DNA from: Actinomycetes bacterium
GTDB taxonomy: Bacteria; Actinomycetota; Acidimicrobiia; Acidimicrobiales; Acidimicrobiaceae
Assembly (NCBI GenBank): GCA_021786375.1
Contig: JAJYNL010000073.1
Coordinates: forward strand, 1 to 33,903
Length of the DNA stretch: 33,903 nt
Direction of reading: 5' to 3'
Shown: positions 24,630-33,628 of the stretch, piece after piece
Numbering within the stretch: the stretch's first letter is position 1
Layout of the letters: every line of letters starts with the position of its first letter
The notes under the pieces: model-generated
What the model saw: the letters and a program-made list of their open reading frames with translations, nothing else
What the model was told of the DNA's origin: nothing
Database searches by the model: none
Program-made: the position numbers and the translations under genes

Positions 24630-25361
24630 TTGGCAACCCTCGTTTCGGCAGCGATTGGCCAGGCGGGACTGGACTGGTCGCCGACCGGAGCCGGCTCGGG
24701 CCAGCATCGCGGCGACGTGGTGATAGACGAGCTGTGTCTCGACTTTCTCGTCGGCAACGGCTTTTCCGTTTATTCCGAGGAGTCCGGCTTCACCGGTACC
24801 GCCGCCCCCGACGCCCAGGTGGTCGTGCTCGACCCCGTCGACGGCTCGACCAACGCCTCGCGCTCCATTCCACTATTCAGTCTCTCCTGCGCGCTCGTCT
24901 CGGGCGGGGAACTGGTCGGGGGCTACGTGGAGGAGCTGACCAACCACGCGCGCTACTACGCCGTACGCGGCGAGGGCGCGTATTACATGGATGCCCCGAT
25001 CTCGGCCCCACCAAGCGGGAAGCCACTGCGTCGCTCGGTGGTTGCCGTCAACGGTTATCCGCGTGCGTATCTCGGGTGGGGGCAGTTCAGGGCGCTTGGT
25101 TCTGCCGCACTGGAGCTGGCCATGGTTGCCTCGGGCCAGCTGGACGCCTACATTGACTGCTCACGGTCGGGCCTGGCGCCGTGGGATTACCTGGGGGCTC
25201 TTGCGGTCCTCAGAGAGACGGGCTGTGCTGTCGCCTCGCTGGACGACGGTCCCTCCCCGGAGGAGGACCTCTACGGTGCTCGGCGCAGGATTGCCGCCGC
25301 CGCTTCTCCAGCCCTCCTGGACGAGCTGACCTCGGCCTGGCGCGCATCAGCGCGCCGATAG
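24630..25361 (+). CDS. Inositol monophosphatase family protein
   Basis: A 243-residue member of the lithium-sensitive, Mg2+-dependent phosphatase family. It carries SEES (49-52), VVLDPVDGSTN (65-75) with metal-binding aspartates, and LAPWDYLGALAVLRETG (181-197) with Asp185, the three metal-site motifs. It may act on inositol-, fructose- or nucleotide phosphates. The start is unclear: the TTG at 24630 has no ribosome site, and the frame remains protein-like upstream (RKAIELFREL) back to a TAG at 24582, with no ATG or GTG. A non-standard ATC start at 24594 would fit the -10 box. Confidence 0.88.
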   Translation: MATLVSAAIGQAGLDWSPTGAGSGQHRGDVVIDELCLDFLVGNGFSVYSEESGFTGTAAPDAQVVVLDPVDGSTNASRSIPLFSLSCALVSGGELVGGYVEELTNHARYYAVRGEGAYYMDAPISAPPSGKPLRRSVVAVNGYPRAYLGWGQFRALGSAALELAMVASGQLDAYIDCSRSGLAPWDYLGALAVLRETGCAVASLDDGPSPEEDLYGARRRIAAAASPALLDELTSAWRASARR

Positions 25362-25444
25362 GAGACGCCGCCCTCGGGTCGCACCGTGGGTTCCCTGCGT
25401 GCTAACACCGTAGTTCCCTCGTTCCGGAATCCTCGGCGGCGCCG

Positions 25445-25450
25445 TACAAT
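25445..25450 (+). promoter_or_regulatory. -10 box of a leaderless transcript
   Basis: TACAAT, close to consensus, is followed by exactly 6 bases and then the GTG at 25457. No Shine-Dalgarno is present. Confidence 0.55.
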
Positions 25451-25456
25451 CGTCGA

Positions 25457-26158
25457 GTGCAAATCGCAGGGGAGCCCCCTTTTTTCCCGGATGGGCCGGA
25501 CGTCGAGGTGCGCCTGGTAGTCGTCGAGAGCCGCTTGCTGATCCGCGAGGGGCTCCGTGAACTGCTGTCGCGGCACCAGGACATGGAGGTGGTGGGAACC
25601 GCCTGCTGTCTTGCCGACGCAATCGCGCTGCTGACCAAGGTGCATCCCAGCGTGGTTCTGGTCGCCTTCGAGCTTCATGACGGCAGCGGGCTCGAGCTGG
25701 TGCCGCGGATACGGCGAGCCCACCTCGGCACGCGGGTTCTCATCGTCGGCTCCGAGCCTGATCCGGCCTTGGCCAGGCGCGCCCTGGCTTGGGGCGCCGC
25801 CGGCTATTTGCTCGATTCGGTAAACTCCGACGAGCTCGCCGGGGCAATCCGAGTGGTAGCCGCCGGGGCGGTGGTCCTGGACCACGCGTTTTCTACGCTC
25901 GCATCCACCCCCGAGCCCCAGCACAGCTCGCACTCGCGGATCTCTCTCACACTGCGTGAAGAGCAGATTCTGGAGTGCCTGGCGGCTGGGTGGGGAAACC
26001 GCCGTATCGCCGAGGAGTGCGGCTTGAGTGTCCGCACCGTGGAGGGGCATATCTCCAAGTTGCTCGACAAGCTGGGAGTCGCATCCCGTGTGGAAGCCGC
26101 TCTCTGGGCGGTCAGGCACGGCTGCGCTCCTGCTCAAAGGCATATTGCTCACGAGTAG
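25457..26158 (+). CDS. NarL/LuxR-type regulator with degenerate receiver domain
   Basis: A 233-residue two-domain regulator. The receiver fold is clear (VEVRLVVVESRLLIREGLREL, GSGLELVPRIR, GAAGYLL), but every phosphorylation residue is changed. The acidic pair is Glu24-Ser25, the phospho-acceptor is Ala70 (VVLVAFELHDGSG), the Thr/Ser is Gly98, and the Lys is Asp120. The C-terminal helix-turn-helix is intact (LTLREEQILECLAAGWGNRRIAEECGLSVRTVEGHI, about 165-199). It should bind DNA without classical phosphorelay, perhaps sensing a ligand or partner. It lies 162 bp upstream of the cupredoxin operon and has no kinase gene beside it. Start set by the -10 box. Confidence 0.88.
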   Translation: MQIAGEPPFFPDGPDVEVRLVVVESRLLIREGLRELLSRHQDMEVVGTACCLADAIALLTKVHPSVVLVAFELHDGSGLELVPRIRRAHLGTRVLIVGSEPDPALARRALAWGAAGYLLDSVNSDELAGAIRVVAAGAVVLDHAFSTLASTPEPQHSSHSRISLTLREEQILECLAAGWGNRRIAEECGLSVRTVEGHISKLLDKLGVASRVEAALWAVRHGCAPAQRHIAHE

Positions 26159-26162
26159 CACG

Positions 26163-26182
26163 GCACCGGGGAATTACGGTGC
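26163..26182 (+). terminator. Possible hairpin terminator after the regulator gene
   Basis: GCACCG and CGGTGC form a perfect 6-bp stem with an 8-nt loop, starting 5 nt after the stop codon at 26158. No U-run follows, so termination is only suggested. The rest of 26183-26319 is the leader region of the next operon, with a further imperfect GCACAC/GTGTGC hairpin; no promoter could be assigned. Confidence 0.3.
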
Positions 26183-26319
26183 GTCCTCACGGTGATAGCT
26201 CGCTTATCGATCGCTCAGGCAACCCTCAGAATTTGTGATGTTGGCCGGGGTGCGCCCCGTGACAGACCAAAAGGAGCACACGCGGAGACGCGCCGTGTGT
26301 GCCGGCTAGGAGGAAGCAA

Positions 26320-26919
26320 ATGAACAGGACCAAGGGTCAGCGCTGGGCGGTCATCGCCGCTGGAGCACTGGCTGCCGGTGGCGCCCTTGCGGCGTGCGGC
26401 TCGGCCAGCGCCTCGTCCAGCTCGACCACGGCGGCCCCCAAGGCCGCGCCGGTTGTCGTGCATGAGGCGATGACCATTCTCACCGGTGGCATGATCGCCG
26501 ATCCGGGCTGGCCGGCTATCGTTCCCGGATCCGTGACGGTTCCCGCCGGCTCCACTGTCGACATGACAATCTATAACTACGACGACGGCACCGCGCCGCT
26601 CCCGACCAGCCTTGCCAGCTACGCCAAGGCCACCGGCGTCACCGATCTGACCGAGAACGGCACCCCGGTGAGCACCATGGACCCCTCGGCCGTGTCCCAC
26701 ACCTTCACCATTCCCGCCCTGGGCGTCAACGTGCCCATCGGCGTCAGGCCAACCGCCACCGGTGTGAAGAAGCCGCTGGTGGTCCAGTTCAGCTTCACGG
26801 TGACCAAGACCGGAAACTTCGAGTGGCAGTGCATGGCCCCTTGCGGCAGTGGCTCCGACGGCATGGAAGGCGCCATGTCTACGGACAACTTCATGAAGGG
26901 CACCTTCACGGTCGCCTAG
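26320..26919 (+). CDS. Cupredoxin-like lipoprotein 1 with variant CuA-type motif
   Basis: The 199-residue protein has a lipoprotein signal (WAVIAAGALAAGGALAAC, lipid site Cys26), an Ala/Ser linker and a cupredoxin-like beta domain. Probable copper ligands are His127 (SHTFTIP) and the loop CMAPCGSGSDGM with Cys171, Cys175 and Met182. Spacing C-x3-C-x6-M equals that of CuA of cytochrome oxidase subunit II, but the CuA histidine four residues after the second Cys is Ser179. The segment NYDDGTAPLP (86-95) is shared with the next protein. It should carry electrons on the outer face of the membrane. AGGAGG lies 6 nt before the ATG. First gene of the operon. Confidence 0.82.
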   Translation: MNRTKGQRWAVIAAGALAAGGALAACGSASASSSSTTAAPKAAPVVVHEAMTILTGGMIADPGWPAIVPGSVTVPAGSTVDMTIYNYDDGTAPLPTSLASYAKATGVTDLTENGTPVSTMDPSAVSHTFTIPALGVNVPIGVRPTATGVKKPLVVQFSFTVTKTGNFEWQCMAPCGSGSDGMEGAMSTDNFMKGTFTVA

Positions 26920-26969
26920 GCGAACTGAAGGCCACCCGGGGAATTTGAGTGCAGAAGGAGGTTGGCGGT

Positions 26970-27656
26970 ATGGATTCACCGACGGGATCTGGTGCTGGGA
27001 CGGGGAGTCGCGCGGCTCCCCGGCACGCGAGTGCGCTAAGCGCCGGACATCGAGGCCGTGCGCTGGCGGTATCGGCAGGCGCGGGTGTCGCCGTGGCCGC
27101 CGCTCTCGCGCTCGGCGGCTGCACGTCGGGGCAATCCGCCGCCACCTCCACCGTCCAGAAGGTCTCGGCGAACACGATCATCCATCGCAAGCTGGTGATC
27201 GAGACCGGGAAGATGGATGGGAAGCCGGGGTGGCCCCGATTCACGCCCGGCGGATTCACAGCCCCGGCGGGAGCGACGATTGTCCTCACGATCGTCAACT
27301 ACGACGACGGTACTGCGCCCCTGCCGCCTGCCTCCCCCTGGGGGCAGGTTTGGGGTGGCGACGCCACATTTGGAGAGGTGACCGGTGGGACCGAACTGGT
27401 AAACGGGACCAAGGTGAACGGGATCTCCAACCAGCTGGTCTCCCACACCTTCGAGATTCCCGCGCTGCTGGTGAACATTCCCATTCCGGCGGCCTCATCG
27501 AGCAGCCACCCCGTGACCGTGACCTACACCTTCAGGGTCAACAAGTCCGGCACCTTCCTGTGGATCTGCGCCGCCCCTTGCGGCAGCGGGTCGGCAGGCA
27601 TGGGTGGCGCCATGGGGGCAAACGGCTGGATGAGAGGCTACGTGCACATCACGTGA
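26970..27656 (+). CDS. Cupredoxin-like lipoprotein 2, paralogue of the preceding protein
   Basis: The 228-residue protein has a longer n-region, a hydrophobic core (ALAVSAGAGVAVAAALAL) and lipobox LGGC (Cys51). The domain shares GWPRFTPGGFTAPAG and NYDDGTAPLPPAS with protein 1. Probable ligands are His159 (SHTFEIP) and CAAPCGSGSAGM with Cys200, Cys204 and Met211; again the CuA second histidine is replaced by Ser. Its size and loop insertions differ from protein 1, so the duplication is not recent. AAGGAGG lies 8 nt before the ATG at 26970, preferred to the in-frame GTG at 26949. Fifty bases separate it from gene 1; its stop overlaps the start of a 22-codon frame. Confidence 0.82.
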   Translation: MDSPTGSGAGTGSRAAPRHASALSAGHRGRALAVSAGAGVAVAAALALGGCTSGQSAATSTVQKVSANTIIHRKLVIETGKMDGKPGWPRFTPGGFTAPAGATIVLTIVNYDDGTAPLPPASPWGQVWGGDATFGEVTGGTELVNGTKVNGISNQLVSHTFEIPALLVNIPIPAASSSSHPVTVTYTFRVNKSGTFLWICAAPCGSGSAGMGGAMGANGWMRGYVHIT

Positions 27657-27724
27657 TGGGCGAGGTGCTGAGGCAATCGTCGGCCGCGGATTTGGCGGCC
27701 CAGCTATTGGGAGCAGGGAATTGA
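27656..27724 (+). CDS. 22-codon small reading frame coupled at both ends
   Basis: The ATG shares its A with the stop of cupredoxin 2 (TGATG, 27654-27658). The frame encodes MGEVLRQSSAADLAAQLLGA plus GN and stops at TGA 27722-27724, overlapping the TTG start of the Fe-S gene (TTGA, 27721-27724). This stop-start chaining suggests that ribosomes pass through it to reach the Fe-S gene. The peptide is amphipathic and helical by eye. It could be a translated coupling leader or a small protein in its own right; no family is known. Confidence 0.5.
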   Translation: MGEVLRQSSAADLAAQLLGAGN

Positions 27725-28701
27725 GCTGGAATTTTGACTTCAAACGCGCGAAGGGGCTAAGGATCGGGGAGCCCGAGCAGCCGCCCGCGAGCTGCTCGTC
27801 GGTAGGTTCGTGCGGCCTGCCGACTGCGATCCCCCCGGGAGACGGCGATTCGCCGGTCTCCCGGCGCAATTTTCTCCGCCTCCTCGGCGGCGGCCTCGGC
27901 ACGGCTGCCCTGGTAGGGGCCGGTGCCGAATTCATCTCTTATCGGGCCTGGGCCCAGGGTGCCAACGGCACCACCGGCGGTGGAGGCATGGGTGGCAAAG
28001 GCGCGGCCACCATGGCCGACACCAAGGCGCCGCCGACACACCAGTGGGCCATGGTGATAGATCTGCGCAACTGCGACGGATGTGGATCCTGCACCGCCGC
28101 TTGCCAGAAGGCGCACAGCCTCACTCCTGACCAGACCTGGATCAAGGTCTTTGCCATGGAGGACTCGACCGGGAACACCTACAACATGCCCCGCCCGTGC
28201 ATGCAGTGCGAAAACCCACCCTGCCTGGACGTTTGCCCGGTGCACGCGACTTTCCGTACCGACCAGGGCGTAGTCCTGGTCAACCAGGACCGCTGCATCG
28301 GCTGCCGCATGTGCATGGCGGCATGTCCGTACGAGGCCCGCTACTTCAACTGGAACTCCGGGGTGAGCTACCCGCGCCTGCCGGTCCAGCCGACGCCGGA
28401 GTTTCCCGTGCCCCAGCGCCTGGGCACGGTCGGCAAGTGCACCTTCTGCGTGGGCAACCTCAACAACGGCCTGCTGAGCGAGTGCGCATCCGGCTGCCCG
28501 ATGGGTGCCATCTACAACGCCGATGTGATCACCGACGTCGCGGTCAACTCGATGGGCGAGACGGTGAAGCTCTCCCAGTATCTCTACGACAACAACGCGG
28601 TGACCTTCAAGCAAGAGGACAACACCCATCCGCGCGTCTGGTACATCCTCGGTCATGGCCAGGATCTCGATACCGACACCGACCAGAGCACGAGCGCTTA
28701 G
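27721..28701 (+). CDS. Tat-exported ferredoxin-like protein with four [4Fe-4S] motifs
   Basis: The 326-residue protein is of the PsrB/NrfC/ActB-C-terminal type. A Tat signal, SRRNFLRLLGG (47-57), follows a long 46-residue n-region. Cysteine groups are C118-x2-C-x2-C-x3-C128, C160-x2-C-x4-C-x3-C172, C192-x2-C-x2-C-x3-C202 and C240-x2-C-x11-C-x3-C259, enough for four cubane clusters. In known complexes such subunits sit against an NrfD protein on the outer face and relay electrons between quinone and a catalytic partner. No molybdopterin subunit is present here; cupredoxins replace it. The TTG start is the only candidate in frame and has GGGAG and AGGG upstream. Next gene: NrfD. Confidence 0.92.
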   Translation: MSWNFDFKRAKGLRIGEPEQPPASCSSVGSCGLPTAIPPGDGDSPVSRRNFLRLLGGGLGTAALVGAGAEFISYRAWAQGANGTTGGGGMGGKGAATMADTKAPPTHQWAMVIDLRNCDGCGSCTAACQKAHSLTPDQTWIKVFAMEDSTGNTYNMPRPCMQCENPPCLDVCPVHATFRTDQGVVLVNQDRCIGCRMCMAACPYEARYFNWNSGVSYPRLPVQPTPEFPVPQRLGTVGKCTFCVGNLNNGLLSECASGCPMGAIYNADVITDVAVNSMGETVKLSQYLYDNNAVTFKQEDNTHPRVWYILGHGQDLDTDTDQSTSA

Positions 28702-28710
28702 GCACACGCC

Positions 28711-28749
28711 ATGGGAGCACAGGAAATGAACACGACGGGAGAGGGCTGA
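28711..28749 (+). other. Very short reading frame before the NrfD gene
   Basis: ATG at 28711 or, in the same frame, ATG at 28726 (preceded by AGGAA) gives a peptide of 12 or 7 residues (MGAQEMNTTGEG) ending with TGA 3 nt before the NrfD GTG. Like the 22-codon frame, it could couple translation; it may equally be chance. Confidence 0.3.
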
Positions 28750-28752
28750 GCG

Positions 28753-30786
28753 GTGCAGCAGGAATATGAAGATTTGAAAGCGAGGGTCGACGGAGCCGTT
28801 GGGCGCGGTGCCCAAGGCGACGCTTGGAACGAAGTGGTTAGAGAAGCGGCCCTCCGCTCGATGCAGCGGCACGGACGCAAGTGGTGGATCGGTGTCGTGC
28901 TGCTCGCCTTGGTGGTTCTGGCAGGCTTCTACGCCTGGATCTATCAGCTCCGCCACGGCATGGGCTCAGCCGGATACAACGACCAGGCCTTCTGGGCTGT
29001 TTACTTGGCAGACGTAGTTGCCTTCATCGGCGTGAGCTACGGCGGCGCGGTCATCTCGGCGATCCTGCGCCTGACCGGACAGAGCTGGAGGGCTCCGCTC
29101 ACTCGACTGGCGGAGGGGATGGCCCTGGTAACGGTGCTGATCGGCGCCGCCTTCATCTTCCCCCACCTCGGCCGGCCAGAGCGCTTCCTCAACATCATCG
29201 CCTATCCCAATACCTCCTCGCCGCTGGTGTGGGACTTCCTGGCAATCGGCACCTATACCCTGGCGACCATCATCTTCTTCTACCTGCCCCTCATCCCGGA
29301 CTTGGCGATAGTCAACAAGTACCCCGGAGCGCGGGGCGGCCGGTTGCGCAAGGCCATCTTCAAGGCGCTTTCGCTGAACTGGCTCGGCAACGAGAAGCAG
29401 CGCAGGGTGCTTCACGGGGCCCTGACCATCGTCTCGCTGCTTATCGTCCCGCTGGCGGTTTCGGTGCACTCGGTGCTCTCCTGGGCCTTCGCCCTCACCA
29501 GCCGACCCGGCTGGGCTGAGACCGTTTTCCCGCCCTACTTCGTGATCGCCGCCCTCTACTCCGGCACCGCGCTGGTCGTGGTCACGGCCTCGGCCTTCCG
29601 CAAGGGGTATCATCTCGAGCGCTTCATCACCAAGCGCCACTTCGCCAGGCTCGGCTACCTGATGGCGGCTCTCGGGCTGGTCTACCTCTACCTGACTTTC
29701 GTGGACCTGATCGGCGAGGGCTACACCGGAATCAGCACCGGCTGGATCCAGCAGACCGTCACCGGCCGCTACGCCCTCGCCTTCTGGTTCTACGTCGTCG
29801 CCGGGGAGCTCCTGCCTCTCGTGCTGGTGGCGATCAAGAAGACCCGTACGCCGACGGGCATGACCGTGGCCGCAGTCGGAGTGGTCATCGCCCTGTGGGT
29901 GAAGCGGATGGTCATCATCCTGCCGGCGGCCACTCAACCGCTGGTCTCGGGTCCTTGGGGCAGCTACCACTTCACCTGGGTCTCCATTACGATTACCCTG
30001 GCCGGCGTGGCCGCTATTCCGCTGCTCCTGATGCTGCTCTTCCACTTCGTCCCGCTCTTCTCCATCGACGAGATGGAGGAAGTCGGATACCTCGGAGCGA
30101 TCGAGCAGGTCTCGGCGGAAACCTCCGCGGCCATCGCCTCGGGAGAGTACGACGAGGTGCCGGAACTCGCGTCGTCCAGTGCCGCAGGCGATGCGGCTCC
30201 GACTCACGTGTCTGGCCGCCGACCGCGCCTCCGCCGCCGCGCCTTGGGCACAGGCACCGCAATGGCGGCGACCGCCCTCATGGCCGCCGCGGCGATTTCC
30301 CTATTCGGCGGTGCCAAGCCGGCAGGAGCAAGCACAGCTGTGCCATTCCGCCTGGCGGTCGCCCAGGTCACTCCGGGCAAGGCCACGCTGTCGCTTGTCG
30401 CCTCCGGGTCCCCGGGTCAAAAGGTGGACTTTTACGTGCAGACGGCCACCTTCTCCACCGGCGGGCTGATGGAGATCGGCTCCGCCAGTGCGACCAACGG
30501 TTCGGCCGAGATCACCTACCTTCCGACCTGGACCGGCGAGGAGATCTTCGTGGCCCGGGCGCTCGGAGCGGGCGGGAGCGTTGCCGGGAGCGCCACGCAG
30601 GCCTACAAGGTCACTCTTGATCCGGCGGGCCTGCCCAAGAGTGTCTACGAGTACACGCGGCCCATGGACGGGGTTGGTGTAAACCTGGTGCGGACGCTGC
30701 TGGCGATTGCCGCTGCAGTTTGGATCGTGCTTCTAGGGACGCTGCTGGTCGTCGCGGTGCGCATTCCCAGGCTGGCCAGGCGCTGA
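28753..30786 (+). CDS. NrfD/PsrC-family membrane protein with added C-terminal extracytoplasmic domain
   Basis: A 677-residue protein. Residues 40-440 are the NrfD core, with about eight to ten helices including AFWAVYLADVVAFIGVSYGG, FIFPHLGRPERFLNII (133-148, a family hallmark) and a late VKRMVIILPAATQP segment. Such proteins bind menaquinone or quinol and pass electrons to the Fe-S subunit. An acidic linker (440-486) and a basic stretch lead to an extra helix (498-518), an extracytoplasmic beta-rich domain (about 525-630, Ig-like by eye) and a final helix (647-668). NrfD proteins normally end near residue 400-480, so this is a fusion. The GTG start follows GGGAGAGGG at about 8 nt. Fourth main gene of the operon. 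Confidence 0.88.
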   Translation: MQQEYEDLKARVDGAVGRGAQGDAWNEVVREAALRSMQRHGRKWWIGVVLLALVVLAGFYAWIYQLRHGMGSAGYNDQAFWAVYLADVVAFIGVSYGGAVISAILRLTGQSWRAPLTRLAEGMALVTVLIGAAFIFPHLGRPERFLNIIAYPNTSSPLVWDFLAIGTYTLATIIFFYLPLIPDLAIVNKYPGARGGRLRKAIFKALSLNWLGNEKQRRVLHGALTIVSLLIVPLAVSVHSVLSWAFALTSRPGWAETVFPPYFVIAALYSGTALVVVTASAFRKGYHLERFITKRHFARLGYLMAALGLVYLYLTFVDLIGEGYTGISTGWIQQTVTGRYALAFWFYVVAGELLPLVLVAIKKTRTPTGMTVAAVGVVIALWVKRMVIILPAATQPLVSGPWGSYHFTWVSITITLAGVAAIPLLLMLLFHFVPLFSIDEMEEVGYLGAIEQVSAETSAAIASGEYDEVPELASSSAAGDAAPTHVSGRRPRLRRRALGTGTAMAATALMAAAAISLFGGAKPAGASTAVPFRLAVAQVTPGKATLSLVASGSPGQKVDFYVQTATFSTGGLMEIGSASATNGSAEITYLPTWTGEEIFVARALGAGGSVAGSATQAYKVTLDPAGLPKSVYEYTRPMDGVGVNLVRTLLAIAAAVWIVLLGTLLVVAVRIPRLARR

Positions 30787-30820
30787 GATGGAACCGCAGG
30801 TGAAAGACAGGAGAAAAGTC

Positions 30821-31327
30821 GTGCGCTATCGAGGTCTTTTCGCACTGGCGGCGGTTGTCGGGCTCGGTTCGGGACTGGCAGCCTGTGGGGGCGATGCGCC
30901 GCAGGCGGCACCCACGCCACAAGGCCAGGTCCTCACGGGCAATGCCCCCTGGATGGCCGGGAGCCAGCTGAAAAGTTCGGCCGCGGCGGCCACCACGGTG
31001 GACATCACCATCAAGGATGTGACCACACCCGAGGGTTCCGAGCCCGCCTATGTCGGCAGCGGGGGAGTGGGCGCCGCCTCGCTCTTCTCGATGAAGGCCG
31101 GAACCACGGTCGAGATAGTGGTGGACAACAAGGACGCCATGCCCCACACCTTCACCGTTCCCAGCCTCGGCTTCAACCAGACCATCTCGCCCCAGGCGGT
31201 CACCAAGTTCAAGGTGACGGCAAAGACGGCGGGGACCGTCACCTGGTACTGCGCCATCCCGTGCGGCTCCTGGGTGATGACCCACCCTGGCTACATGAAG
31301 GGAAGTTTCACGGTCACCGCATCCTGA
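30821..31327 (+). CDS. Cupredoxin-like lipoprotein 3
   Basis: The 168-residue protein has signal LFALAAVVGLGSGLAAC with lipid site Cys22. The cupredoxin domain keeps FSMKAGTTVEIVVDNKDAMPHTF with His109 and the loop CAIPCGSWVMTHPGYM with Cys144, Cys148, Met153, His155 and Met159. It shares C-x3-C-G-S with proteins 1 and 2 but places a histidine where they have methionine, so its copper site should differ. It lacks their NYDDGTAPLP segment. The GTG at 30821 with AGGAG 7 nt upstream is preferred to an in-frame ATG at 30788, because it gives a normal lipoprotein signal. Last gene of the operon; a strong hairpin follows at 31414. Confidence 0.82.
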   Translation: MRYRGLFALAAVVGLGSGLAACGGDAPQAAPTPQGQVLTGNAPWMAGSQLKSSAAAATTVDITIKDVTTPEGSEPAYVGSGGVGAASLFSMKAGTTVEIVVDNKDAMPHTFTVPSLGFNQTISPQAVTKFKVTAKTAGTVTWYCAIPCGSWVMTHPGYMKGSFTVTAS

Positions 31328-31413
31328 AAGGGAGGCGGGTGATGGGCGGGCGGCAAATGGGGCCGTCCGGGGTGAGCTAGGACCTGCACCCCCCAATAGC
31401 TTCCTTGCACCCA

Positions 31414-31448
31414 AGGCCGGACTCCGCGCAAAGCGTGGGGTCCGGCCT
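31414..31448. terminator. Strong bidirectional hairpin between convergent operons
   Basis: A 16-bp stem (AGGCCGGACTCCGCGC with GCGTGGGGTCCGGCCT, including two G-U pairs on the plus-strand RNA) closes a 3-base AAA loop. It lies between the end of the cupredoxin operon (31327) and the convergent kinase gene (31482). No U-run flanks it on either side, so it may act with Rho or as an L-shaped hairpin. Confidence 0.7.
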
Positions 31449-31481
31449 CCCTAATTGATCAGCTTGGCACGCTCGCGGCCA

Positions 31482-32945
31482 TCACTCGCTGGTGGCGACT
31501 CCGTGGATGGGAAGATAGGCAACAACGGTGGTTCCGTCGCGCTCCGACGAGAAGATCTCCAGCTTTCCACCCAGCAGGCTGGCTCTCTCGCGCATTCCGC
31601 GCAGGCCGAGCTGGGACTTGACAGGGGAGGCGTCGGGGTCGAACCAGCCGCCGTTGTTCCATATCGTCAGCCGGACGCTTGAGGTCCAAAATGCAAGTTC
31701 AACGCGCACGTGTTCGGGCTCAGCGTGTGTGACGGCGTTGTTGAGCGCTTCCTGGGCAATTCGATAAAGCCCTAGCTCGCATTCGGGGCTGAGGCGCCTT
31801 TCGGATCCATGGATGCTCAGGTCCAGACGGGGGCCCCACGGCGCTCTCTCCTCCTCGTCTGACAGCAGCCCGCGTAGTGCTGCGGCCAGTCCCAGGTGTT
31901 CCAGGGCCGGTGGCCTCAGACCCTGCGCCAGGTCGCGCAAGGTCCGAGAGGTGGTCAGAAGCTCTTGGCGTAAGTTGGAGATTCGCTCGGCGTCGGCTTT
32001 GTCGATGTGGTTGGATGAGGTGAAGAGTTCAAGGCGTCTAGCCACCCCCAGCAGCCTTTGCAACGGGTCATCGTGTATCTCCCGGGCGATGCGGGCGCGC
32101 TCCTCCTCCTGAGCCGCCAGGAGGGCGGCGGCGAACTCCTGGGCGTCCTTCCAGGCGCGGCGCTCGGCGGTGACGTCCTGGAGCAGGACCTGAATGTGCG
32201 GGCGCTTGTCCGCCTCCACCAGGCTTGTAATGCAGCGGAACTCGTACTGGTTGCCTCCCGATCGCAGCGGGACCCTATCAGGCCCACGGTGGGCAGCGAG
32301 GTCATCTGGGGCGATTTGCAGCAGATGTTCGCAGTCCGTATCGAGAACCGAGGGGCCGAAGAGGGCCCAGGCGGCTGGGTTGGCGTCGAGGGTCCTTCCA
32401 TCGGCGTGAAACACCAGGATGGGCGCGCCCGTCGAGGCAAATATCTGGCGATAGCGCGCATCGCTGAGACGCTGGGCCTGTGCAGCCAGACTTGCGGCGG
32501 ACAGGGCCATGCCTTCACGCTCGATCCTCTGGCCGACCACCAACGCCACCGCATCGACAAGGGCCAGGCTGACCAGATCAGCGGCGGCATCGCGGTGATC
32601 ACCGGCCAGGGCAAGGTTGGGCATCCACAGAACCGTCGCCCAGAGGGCGGTGGCGGCGGATCCATGCAGTCCAAAGCGCAGGGCCGCGTAGGTGACGGGG
32701 ATGAAGAGTAGGGCGACGGGTAGGCTGACGAGGCTGACTTCGTGGATGACGTGTGCCTCGTCGAGCCAAAGGTGAAGTGCGGTAAGAGCAAGGACGCTGG
32801 CCTGGATGGCCCAGAAGTAGAGGTCCCGAACCGGGGGATGCAGGGCTCGCGACAGCACCCGGCGAATGGGAACCGAGGAGGCTCCCGCCGGAGCGTAAGC
32901 GGACACCGACGTGGCCAGTCCGCCCTCTGTCGCGAACGAACTCAT
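31482..32945 (-). CDS. Membrane sensor histidine kinase (HisKA_3) with PAS domain
   Basis: The 487-residue protein has four or more membrane helices at 43-140 and a PAS domain at about 160-262 (YRQIFASTGAPILVFHADGRTLDANPAAW). The dimerisation segment is EEERARIAREIHDDPLQ with phospho-acceptor His291, and the ATPase domain has N-box QEALNNAVTHAEP (398-410) and G2 box LGLRGMRERASLLGG. The G1 box, normally D-D-G-x-G-F, reads NNGGWF (430-435), losing an ATP-contact aspartate and a glycine. The ATG overlaps the response regulator stop (ATGA), so the pair is translationally coupled. It converges with the cupredoxin operon. The signal sensed is unknown; membrane and PAS layout allow redox or small molecules. 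Confidence 0.9.
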   Translation of the reverse strand: MSSFATEGGLATSVSAYAPAGASSVPIRRVLSRALHPPVRDLYFWAIQASVLALTALHLWLDEAHVIHEVSLVSLPVALLFIPVTYAALRFGLHGSAATALWATVLWMPNLALAGDHRDAAADLVSLALVDAVALVVGQRIEREGMALSAASLAAQAQRLSDARYRQIFASTGAPILVFHADGRTLDANPAAWALFGPSVLDTDCEHLLQIAPDDLAAHRGPDRVPLRSGGNQYEFRCITSLVEADKRPHIQVLLQDVTAERRAWKDAQEFAAALLAAQEEERARIAREIHDDPLQRLLGVARRLELFTSSNHIDKADAERISNLRQELLTTSRTLRDLAQGLRPPALEHLGLAAALRGLLSDEEERAPWGPRLDLSIHGSERRLSPECELGLYRIAQEALNNAVTHAEPEHVRVELAFWTSSVRLTIWNNGGWFDPDASPVKSQLGLRGMRERASLLGGKLEIFSSERDGTTVVAYLPIHGVATSE

Positions 32946-33628
32946 CGACGTCCGGTCTTGAAGCCGGCGTCCCCCCCGCCCACTATTCGTCGCTCGTGCG
33001 CCCAGTGTGCAGCCTCCGTGCGCGTGGAAACGCCCAATTTGGCCAAGAGGTTGCTGACGTATCCTTCGACAGTCCGCACTCCGAGCCCAAGCTCAGCCGC
33101 GATCTTCTTGTTCGGGGCGCCCCCTGCCAAGAGAACCAGGACCTCAAGCTCGCGCGGCGTCAGGTCCACTGGAGTCTCCTGGTGATCGCGCCAGCGTCTC
33201 TGCATGCGCCTGGCGACCTCCTGGTCCAGCACCGTGGTGCCCTTGGAGACCGCGATGATCGCCTCGATGAGAACGCTGCGATCCGCGGTCTTGAGCAGGT
33301 AGCCGGCGGCGCCGGCTTCGACGGCTGCGGTTATGTAGGGGTAATCGACGTATGCACTTACGATCAGACAGCGGGTCTCGGGAGCCTTTTCAGCCGCCGC
33401 CTTGAGCACCGAAATTCCACCGCCCGGGAGTTCAAGGTCGACGAGGGCCACCTTCGGCCGGTGGCGGAGGATCACATCGATGCCGCCCTGGGCATCACCG
33501 GCTTCGCCAACAACGGTCATTCCCTGCTCGGATTCGACCAACTCGCGTAGACCGGCTCGCAGGAGATCGTGATCATCGATGATTACGACGCTGATAACAG
33601 CGGAGTCATTTTGAAATTCCCCGACCAC
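32942..33628 (-). CDS. NarL-type response regulator, intact receiver
   Basis: The 228-residue regulator has a complete receiver: Asp18-Asp19 (VVIIDDHDLLRAGL), phospho-acceptor Asp64 (ALVDLELPGGG), Ser91 (CLIVSAY) and Lys113 (YLLKTAD). The LuxR helix-turn-helix follows (LTPRELEVLVLLAGGAPNKKIAAELGLGVRTVEGYV, about 157-192). It is the cognate partner of the kinase downstream and should bind DNA when phosphorylated. The GTG at 33628 has no ribosome site but a TATAGT -10 box 7 nt upstream, so it is probably leaderless. In contrast to the regulator at 25457, nothing is degenerate. Likely targets include this locus, but no binding site is known. Confidence 0.93.
   Translation of the reverse strand: MVGEFQNDSAVISVVIIDDHDLLRAGLRELVESEQGMTVVGEAGDAQGGIDVILRHRPKVALVDLELPGGGISVLKAAAEKAPETRCLIVSAYVDYPYITAAVEAGAAGYLLKTADRSVLIEAIIAVSKGTTVLDQEVARRMQRRWRDHQETPVDLTPRELEVLVLLAGGAPNKKIAAELGLGVRTVEGYVSNLLAKLGVSTRTEAAHWAHERRIVGGGDAGFKTGRR

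Follow-up and report, generated by a model that had tools for sequence, protein, structure and literature searches.

A cupredoxin-associated Fe-S/NrfD operon of Acidimicrobiaceae, a candidate heme-free relative of alternative complex III

Pairs of an iron-sulfur (Fe-S) protein and a membrane protein of the NrfD family are common to several described systems: alternative complex III (ACIII; ActABCDEF) of Rhodothermus, Flavobacterium, Chloroflexus and Roseiflexus, the DsrMKJOP complex, and PsrBC, NrfCD and other complex iron-sulfur molybdoenzyme (CISM) complexes. Here, we analyze such a pair encoded between genes for cupredoxin-type proteins at positions 26320-31327 of contig JAJYNL010000073.1 (33,903 nucleotides; assembly GCA_021786375.1, Actinomycetes bacterium, Acidimicrobiaceae), the whole of which is referred to below as the window. 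In the source genome (G000; 2.83 Mb, 119 contigs, 95.3% complete), the window corresponds to contig C24.

Auracyanin, a blue copper protein, has been proposed as the electron acceptor of Chloroflexus ACIII, and in R. castenholzii ActE is said to pass electrons on to it; as described in the available text of the sources, these complexes carry heme subunits (PMC3150298, PMC8552683). In F. johnsoniae, an actE mutant kept clear activity, while a mutant in actA, encoding the multiheme subunit, by implication did not, and the available part of the same source still calls the roles of the Fe-S clusters in heme-bearing ACIII unclear (PMC8552683). Other undescribed NrfD clusters are reported to exist, with multiheme cytochromes (PMC10732223, available text). 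A term search of the available text of an NrfD review (PMC8076601) gave no occurrence of the words cupredoxin or copper. An earlier note on this DNA, made from the sequence alone, had suggested that the gene set matches no named complex, and indeed no description of it was found in the open-access literature, preprints and most subscription papers being outside the scope of the search.

The operon shares with ACIII an ActC-type NrfD protein with four of five key residues, and a four-cluster Fe-S protein, predicted to be exported, that resembles the C-terminal domain of ActB (ActB2). However, it contains no genes for the multiheme ActA, the monoheme ActE or a second NrfD protein (ActF), no molybdopterin-like ActB1 domain is fused to its Fe-S protein, and it encodes CuA-like cupredoxins and an immunoglobulin (Ig)-like/transmembrane tail fused to NrfD. 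Since ActA, ActE, ActF and ActB1 are lacking, the module is not an ACIII by membership, but it may work like part of one. DsrO and DsrP are likewise an exported Fe-S/NrfD pair and are the best NCBIfam matches of the window pair; however, the scores are far under the curated cut-offs (159 vs. 200 bits for the Fe-S protein and 82 vs. 350 bits for the NrfD protein), NrfD is nearer to ActC by both structure and sequence, and no DsrM, DsrK or DsrJ was recognized in the operon. From PsrBC, NrfCD and other CISM complexes the operon differs by having neither a catalytic molybdoenzyme nor a cytochrome c nitrite reductase. The module best fits a heme-free, molybdopterin-domain-free relative of ACIII functioning as a menaquinol:cupredoxin oxidoreductase, a reading to which we assign a probability of about 0.6.

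Gene content of the operon

The module consists of five open genes on one strand with intergenic gaps of 1-64 bases, the start of Cup3 following the NrfD stop by 1 base:

26320-26919, + strand: Cup1, cupredoxin fold, lipobox-like ALAAC, motif HTF...C-x3-CG...GAM...FMKG
26970-27656, + strand: Cup2, paralog of Cup1, lipobox-like ALGGC, same motif, without the second CuA-type His
27721-28701, + strand: Fe-S protein, Tat-like leader SRRNFLRLL, four 4-Cys motifs; resembles the ActB C-terminal domain, DsrO and PsrB
28753-30786, + strand: NrfD fusion, NrfD/ActC-type quinone subunit (residues ~24-460) with a fused tail (~500-677) of one helix, a beta domain of Ig-like type and a terminal transmembrane helix
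30788-31327, + strand: Cup3, cupredoxin, lipobox-like LAAC, C-x3-C-x6-H-x3-M; near CuA, spacing differs

The start of Cup2 is an ATG with AAGGAGG upstream, a GTG at 26949 being a possible alternative. The earlier note had read this region as five closely spaced same-strand genes for three cupredoxin lipoproteins, a four-cluster Fe-S protein and a quinone-type NrfD fusion, and this reading was borne out by the open frames and by the protein analyses described in this section.

The NrfD fusion protein (677 residues) matches the Pfam NrfD family with 97.2 bits. Its nearest solved chain by sequence is ActC (6f0k_C, 1.2e-54), and in a Foldseek search the predicted fold (mean predicted local distance difference test score, pLDDT, 81.4) was closest to ActC as well (6btm_C, 1.8e-17, template modeling score by target 0.85), PsrC giving only 1.3e-3. 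The residues His139, Ser164, Asp169 and Arg395 of R. marinus ActC align with H138, S156, D161 and R385 of the window protein; thus, four of the five published quinone/proton residues are kept (roles of His139, Ser164, Asp169, Asp253 and Arg395 according to the available text of PMC8076601). Across nine aligned NrfD rows, one of them from the window, no substitution occurs at S156, D161 or R385, and a single row has Ser in place of H138. In the model, residue 500 is followed by a helix of low confidence, a beta domain with seven strands and a last helix; fold comparison, made with the whole-protein model, returned only weak beta-sandwich matches for this tail. The window has a single NrfD match, and the sole other match of the genome is on contig C7.

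The Fe-S protein (326 residues) contains Fe-S domains only, of the Fer4 families (Pfam), with 16 cysteines in four motifs and two more in the leader. The leader resembles a twin-arginine translocation (Tat) signal, as read from the sequence, and export is predicted. Its matches include chains of the PsrB/NrfC type and the C-terminal region of ActB (783-968 of 8k9e_B). The third Cys motif of the window protein is CIGCR. At the second position of this motif, the 80 relatives described below (L061-L140) have Thr (35), Cys (32), Ser (11) or Glu (1), one being unread, and the printed ActB chains have Thr. The residue seems to track gene-tree groups, and its change may mark a switch between Fe-S cluster types.

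All three Cup proteins have lipobox-like leaders, read off the sequence. Among them, only Cup3 has a Pfam match (Cupredoxin_1), while no Pfam or NCBIfam family was found for Cup1 and Cup2 at E 0.001. An AlphaFold2 model of Cup1, built with a 63-row alignment, is a confident cupredoxin fold (pLDDT 92.2); nitrosocyanin ranks first among the solved structures (Z 11.5, 1.9 A over 95 residues), and CuA domains of NosZ (Z 8.8-9.6, 24-29% identity) and other cupredoxins are also among the matches. Cup2 is a paralog of Cup1 (49% over the aligned part). A nitrosocyanin assignment is not supported by the curated family, for which Cup3 scores 23.1 of the 142.85 bits required and Cup1 and Cup2 have no match.

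Over the 63 rows of the Cup alignment, the invariant residues comprise one His, Cys-x2-Pro-Cys-Gly and two Met; the alignment was drawn from the 125 of 140 tblastn matches having C-x3-CG. The 15 matches left out include three cut by contig ends, ten Cup3-like proteins with Cys-x3-Cys-Asp/Glu and two NosZ, and Cys-x3-Cys itself is kept in every uncut match, including the 12 untruncated ones among these 15. The CuA motif is Cys-x3-Cys-x3-His-x2-Met. Its Cys-x3-Cys and Met, together with the upstream His of CuA, are present in all 63 rows, whereas the second His is absent at that place in Cup1 and Cup2, and Cup3 has C-x3-C-x6-H-x3-M instead, some relatives of Cup3 carrying Asn at the His position. 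Since this His is missing in Cup1 and Cup2 and respaced in Cup3, the copper center cannot be assigned from sequence. The Cup proteins thus share the cupredoxin fold with auracyanin, nitrosocyanin and the CuA domains of COX2 and NosZ, and keep most of the CuA ligand set, but differ in the second His, in an extra conserved Met and in being, by sequence, separate lipoproteins, whereas CuA of COX2 and NosZ resides in enzyme domains.

No CxxCH motif occurs in any called gene of the window, and no molybdopterin-type domain or heme protein is encoded among the operon genes. The absence of a molybdoenzyme and cytochromes c claimed in the earlier note therefore stands for the operon; the genome has a QcrCAB-like set with a diheme protein on another contig.

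Conservation and heme-partnered relatives

A match to NrfD at E 1e-20 was found in 36 of 296 genomes of a class-level sample. A profile of the close NrfD group matched in 13 of 42 genomes of the family and in 33 of 298 genomes of the order, one of the latter (G223) being of the heme type described below. The module is patchy even inside one genus (4 of 12 genomes), many genomes being incomplete. From a scan of named genomes, the best 80 of 120 relatives were kept as named loci; they come mostly from actinobacterial metagenome-assembled genomes (MAGs), others being from Cryobacterium sp. M96 and from MAGs labeled Aeromicrobium, Planktophila, Dermatophilaceae, Micromonosporaceae and Chloroflexi.

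At all 80 loci, NrfD is preceded by a same-strand Fe-S gene, with no room for another gene at 68 and a 1.0-1.1 kb gap containing a small membrane-protein gene at 12. Among the 49 loci whose flanks reach 2.5 kb or more on both sides, a cupredoxin motif occurs within 4.5 kb at 41, a kinase and a regulator at 39, and a called open reading frame (ORF) with CxxCH at six. At two of them (L091, L095), the ORF codes for ~250 residues with a single heme motif and is located ~2.4 kb upstream; the remaining four were judged spurious or unrelated. At least two cupredoxin paralogs are present at 38 of the 80 loci. MopB-like matches were obtained at two of the 80 loci, 5-6 kb off and beyond regulator genes, the queries being three ORFs of relatives taken as MopB by reading, without a profile check. 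The conserved gene set supposed in the earlier note is thus found across genomes, normally with no molybdoenzyme in the operon. The arrangement recurs in dozens of genomes and is therefore beyond chance. The cupredoxin motif expression is imperfect: it misses real cupredoxins (L084 and a gene of G250), and its hit at L038 is doubtful, no Cup gene being found there; as a rough control, it matched none of 19 other loci, viewed over wide flanks, outside the copper group.

A search with the Cup profile covered 18 of the 29 genomes of the family without the module and, leaving G223 aside, 30 of the 44 genomes with NrfD of this type. Strong Cup-family genes (at least 150 bits) were found in 29 of 30 module genomes, and in 26 of these 30 within 6 kb of NrfD, compared to one of 18 module-free genomes (G308); the Fisher p value for the co-occurrence, 7e-11, ignores kinship of the genomes, which are related. 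The exceptions to proximity are G250, with weaker members only, and G059, G317 and G382, where a strong member is on another contig. In G326, which was counted as module-free, a Cup3-like match of 127 bits lies close to the start of a contig; the assembly of this genome may be broken.

Sister operons with homologous Fe-S and NrfD genes have a heme partner instead: an ORF with CxxCH follows NrfD, and no such cupredoxin motif is nearby. In 27 loci viewed over wide flanks, a cupredoxin motif was found in seven (one, L038, being doubtful, and a real Cup3-like gene at L040 being missed) and a CxxCH ORF 0.8-1.0 kb past the NrfD match in 11 (L044-L047, L049-L052, L054, L055, L060, all heme-partnered Fe-S/NrfD loci from the same class), while none had both. 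A twelfth CxxCH, at L041, is in a short ORF at the Fe-S region. In a tree of 66 NrfD rows, built by a quick method with support from the Shimodaira-Hasegawa-like approximate likelihood ratio test only and with partner labels assigned by hand, all 29 copper-labeled rows fall inside one branch of 45 rows (support 98), and all 11 heme-labeled rows inside a separate branch of 14 (support 98), the remaining three rows of which were not viewed over wide flanks. The rest of the 45-row branch comprises five rows near a freshwater-type lipoprotein, five freshwater rows with no partner found, two with NosZ and four more without a found partner. The labels are rough, as L009 and L137 are the same place labeled differently, with the cupredoxins on another contig, and the tree program gave a long-branch warning for L019, L011, L020 and L031. 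The tree is unrooted and therefore shows no ancestral state, copper or heme.

In the four heme-type loci that were aligned, the third subunit consists of an Ig-like domain, transmembrane stretches and a CxxCH domain. Of two such proteins checked with Pfam, both have a cytochrome c domain (L050 and, arranged otherwise, L054). The Ig-transmembrane part is similar to the tail of the window NrfD by profile comparison (89.9%, E 1.7e-6, 19% identity), which for a short beta-rich domain is suggestive rather than proof; the NrfD tail looks like the docking subunit minus its heme.

A membrane protein without a Pfam match (L109:7078-7905) has homologs in 36 of the 80 loci, L109 included, located upstream, downstream or, in the 12 loci mentioned, between Fe-S and NrfD; it is a possible extra membrane subunit or assembly factor.

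Proposed function and electron acceptors

In the inferred scheme, which extends to the substrate (a quinol), the direction and path of electron flow, the copper loading of the cupredoxins, the coupling and the acceptor, menaquinol would be oxidized at an outer-face site of the ActC-like NrfD subunit, electrons would cross the four clusters of the exported Fe-S protein and pass through copper-loaded Cup1-Cup3 to a CuA-bearing oxidase, and NrfD would couple electron transfer to proton movement. The beta/transmembrane tail of NrfD would be a remnant of the docking subunit whose version in the sister complexes carries cytochrome c. The replacement of cytochrome c by copper proteins in a menaquinol/cupredoxin oxidoreductase, suggested in the earlier note, is supported by the heme-partnered sister operons, but the reaction itself is not new, as ACIII of Chloroflexus with auracyanin provides a precedent, albeit with hemes, for quinol to blue-copper transfer by an ActC-type complex. 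We tentatively suggest a more specific picture, somewhat less probable than the general one: an actinobacterial ACIII-type quinol oxidase without heme or a molybdopterin-type scaffold, feeding a new class of CuA-derived copper lipoproteins with a His/Cys/Cys/Met/Met ligand set that lacks the second His, i.e., a copper-wired alternative to complex III beside QcrCAB. If so, it would be a natural heme/copper swap within a respiratory complex and a new wiring of the bacterial electron-transport chain. In acidic, metal-rich waters there would then be an additional respiratory branch that depends on copper, and the cupredoxins would gain members whose ligand set is unusual. It would also be a minimal natural system for how NrfD couples quinol oxidation to proton movement; the Fe-S/NrfD pair alone would be able to oxidize quinol and deliver the electrons to carriers on the outer face, a point of relevance to the mechanism of ACIII.

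The window genome has three COX1 genes. One, on contig C40, sits with the QcrCAB-like set, which includes the diheme QcrC-like protein, and the other two are in Cup-COX2-COX1 clusters on contigs C50 (L160:4963-8434) and C109 (L161:7256-10840), where the cupredoxin directly before COX2 belongs to the Cup family (72-89 bits; motifs CFDPCG and CFVPCG). In two families (f1, f4), seven genomes have a second COX1, and all eight such genes have a Cup-family cupredoxin 1.1-1.4 kb away, while no such cupredoxin was found near similar-scoring COX1 genes of other genomes of the class (G210, G226, G098). These clusters suggest a copper chain to oxygen. As an obligatory acceptor, the oxidase-linked cupredoxin was rejected owing to the opposite trend of co-occurrence, given below. 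A COX1 of at least 490 bits, which by our reading of the score is aa3-type, and a PF13631 cytochrome b are retained in all nine copper-module genomes searched; the simplest acceptor shared by these genomes is hence an ordinary CuA oxidase. Since the PF13631 cytochrome b is present in all 25 genomes searched, the replacement of a lost complex III by the module was also rejected.

Several observations weigh against the menaquinol:cupredoxin reading. In the window NrfD, Asp253 of ActC is replaced by Ala. The invariance of Cys-x3-Cys-Gly in the Cup alignment is partly built in, because the rows were selected by that motif, and the metal site of Cup1 and Cup2 is uncertain without the second His of CuA. 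Oxidase-type cupredoxins, by score and match range, are present in ~9 of 30 module genomes compared to 16 of 18 module-free ones. The PF13631 cytochrome b and the high-scoring COX1 of the nine module genomes searched speak against a module that stands in for complex III. Finally, the lipoproteins of freshwater loci lack Cys-x3-Cys (no cysteine outside the lipobox in three and one in L119), and no partner ORF was seen at five other freshwater loci (L088, L090, L092, L127, L129); hence, copper transfer cannot be assumed across the clade. These lipoproteins are ~330-370 residues long and are encoded upstream of the module (L085:5884-6993, L089:4276-5289, L094:641-1666, L119:3208-4185); that of L089 has two cupredoxin stretches with Cupredoxin_1 matches.

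The module could also run in reverse, the cupredoxins taking electrons from outside, e.g., from Fe(II) in acid mine water, and NrfD reducing menaquinone at the expense of the proton-motive force; this is unlikely, though less so than the other alternatives. According to one proposal, NrfD complexes can both generate and consume electrochemical potential (PMC8076601, available text), and copper proteins are described as Fe(II) electron carriers in other acidophiles, in the sources as far as available. Four loci carry isolate names (MAG 2, 3, 5, 8) that also designate acidimicrobial MAGs in a study of acid mine drainage in Kentucky, the match being by isolate name, as accessions are absent from its available text, and the family name of MAG 8 being different. 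However, the same text lists these four MAGs as "No" for Fe(II) oxidation by the criterion of a Cyc2-like gene (no search for an outer iron oxidase was made here), and the module is absent from close relatives, among them G014, which may be an iron oxidizer. The folds matching Cup1 include nitrosocyanin and CuA domains, whereas rusticyanin is not among the 50 matches listed, which excludes nothing. A metal-oxidizing route, raised in the earlier note, received no direct support.

A further, improbable reading is that the module serves a periplasmic reductase, e.g., N2O reductase, as its quinol dehydrogenase, the reductase gene being located elsewhere or lost in the lineage. In Cryobacterium sp. 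M96 (L124) and in a MAG labeled Aeromicrobium (L130), the Fe-S/NrfD genes are indeed preceded by genes for NosZ and a plastocyanin-type lipoprotein, but full-length NosZ was found only at these two of the 80 named loci, within the flanks fetched, and the NosZ cut-off was passed by no match in 48 genomes of the family and the order, a set that includes 30 module genomes. Weak NosZ matches in the 48 genomes map to that end of the model which holds the CuA domain; several of them are in Cup genes or next to COX1, and the sole match in the window genome (~95% complete) is the COX2 gene of contig C40, below the cut-off. Therefore, NosZ was rejected as the acceptor in this lineage. At L124:4051-9935 and L130:3870-9974, the gene order is NosZ, plastocyanin-type lipoprotein, small membrane protein, Fe-S, NrfD, the lipoprotein of L130 being a homolog of that of L124; both NosZ proteins have a Tat-like leader and score 695 and 722 bits, respectively, to TIGR04246. 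This set is a possible copper-carrier quinol donor for N2O reductase, and its order supports the module class as a quinol-to-copper-carrier donor.

Equally improbable is a non-respiratory function, in which the cupredoxins would be factors for copper trafficking or CuA assembly, and Fe-S/NrfD would supply reductant at the membrane for reactions of copper or disulfides. The lipoboxes of the proteins, their Met-rich loops (GMxGxM) and the relatives beside COX2 would fit such a function, but His, Cys-x3-Cys and Met are conserved in an electron-transfer fold, the quinone and proton residues of ActC are conserved, operons often have two or three cupredoxin paralogs, and the sister operons have heme electron-transfer partners.

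Cytochrome c assembly protein PF01578 has no match in the window genome and G067, while 23 of 25 genomes have one. Loss of cytochrome c maturation in the window genome was rejected, as the diheme QcrC-like gene is present and a genus mate (G214) has PF01578, in two proteins; the missing matches probably reflect an assembly gap.

Flanking genes and elements

The module is flanked by regulatory genes and followed by a hairpin:

25457-26158, + strand: LuxR-type response regulator, directly upstream of the module
31414-31448, + strand: terminator-like hairpin, no T run, from RNA folding
31482-32945, - strand: PAS/HisKA_3 histidine kinase, convergent with the module
32942-33628, - strand: LuxR-type response regulator, adjoining the kinase gene

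The hairpin noted earlier as terminator-like folds strongly (-33.8 kcal/mol, z -5.97, by computation), but no proper T run follows, and it is absent from the list of the terminator scan; it is a hairpin-like element and at most a candidate terminator. No sigma-70-like promoter was found by a promoter scan of 25300-31600; neither the fold nor the scan has a bearing on cotranscription. Ten further genes of the window that were scanned belong to ordinary families (transporters, acyl-CoA enzymes, hydrolases and similar). At two of the named loci, genes for a NapH-like membrane Fe-S protein and a flavoprotein with a ferredoxin domain follow Fe-S/NrfD (L123:11089-14801, L137:11484-14464).

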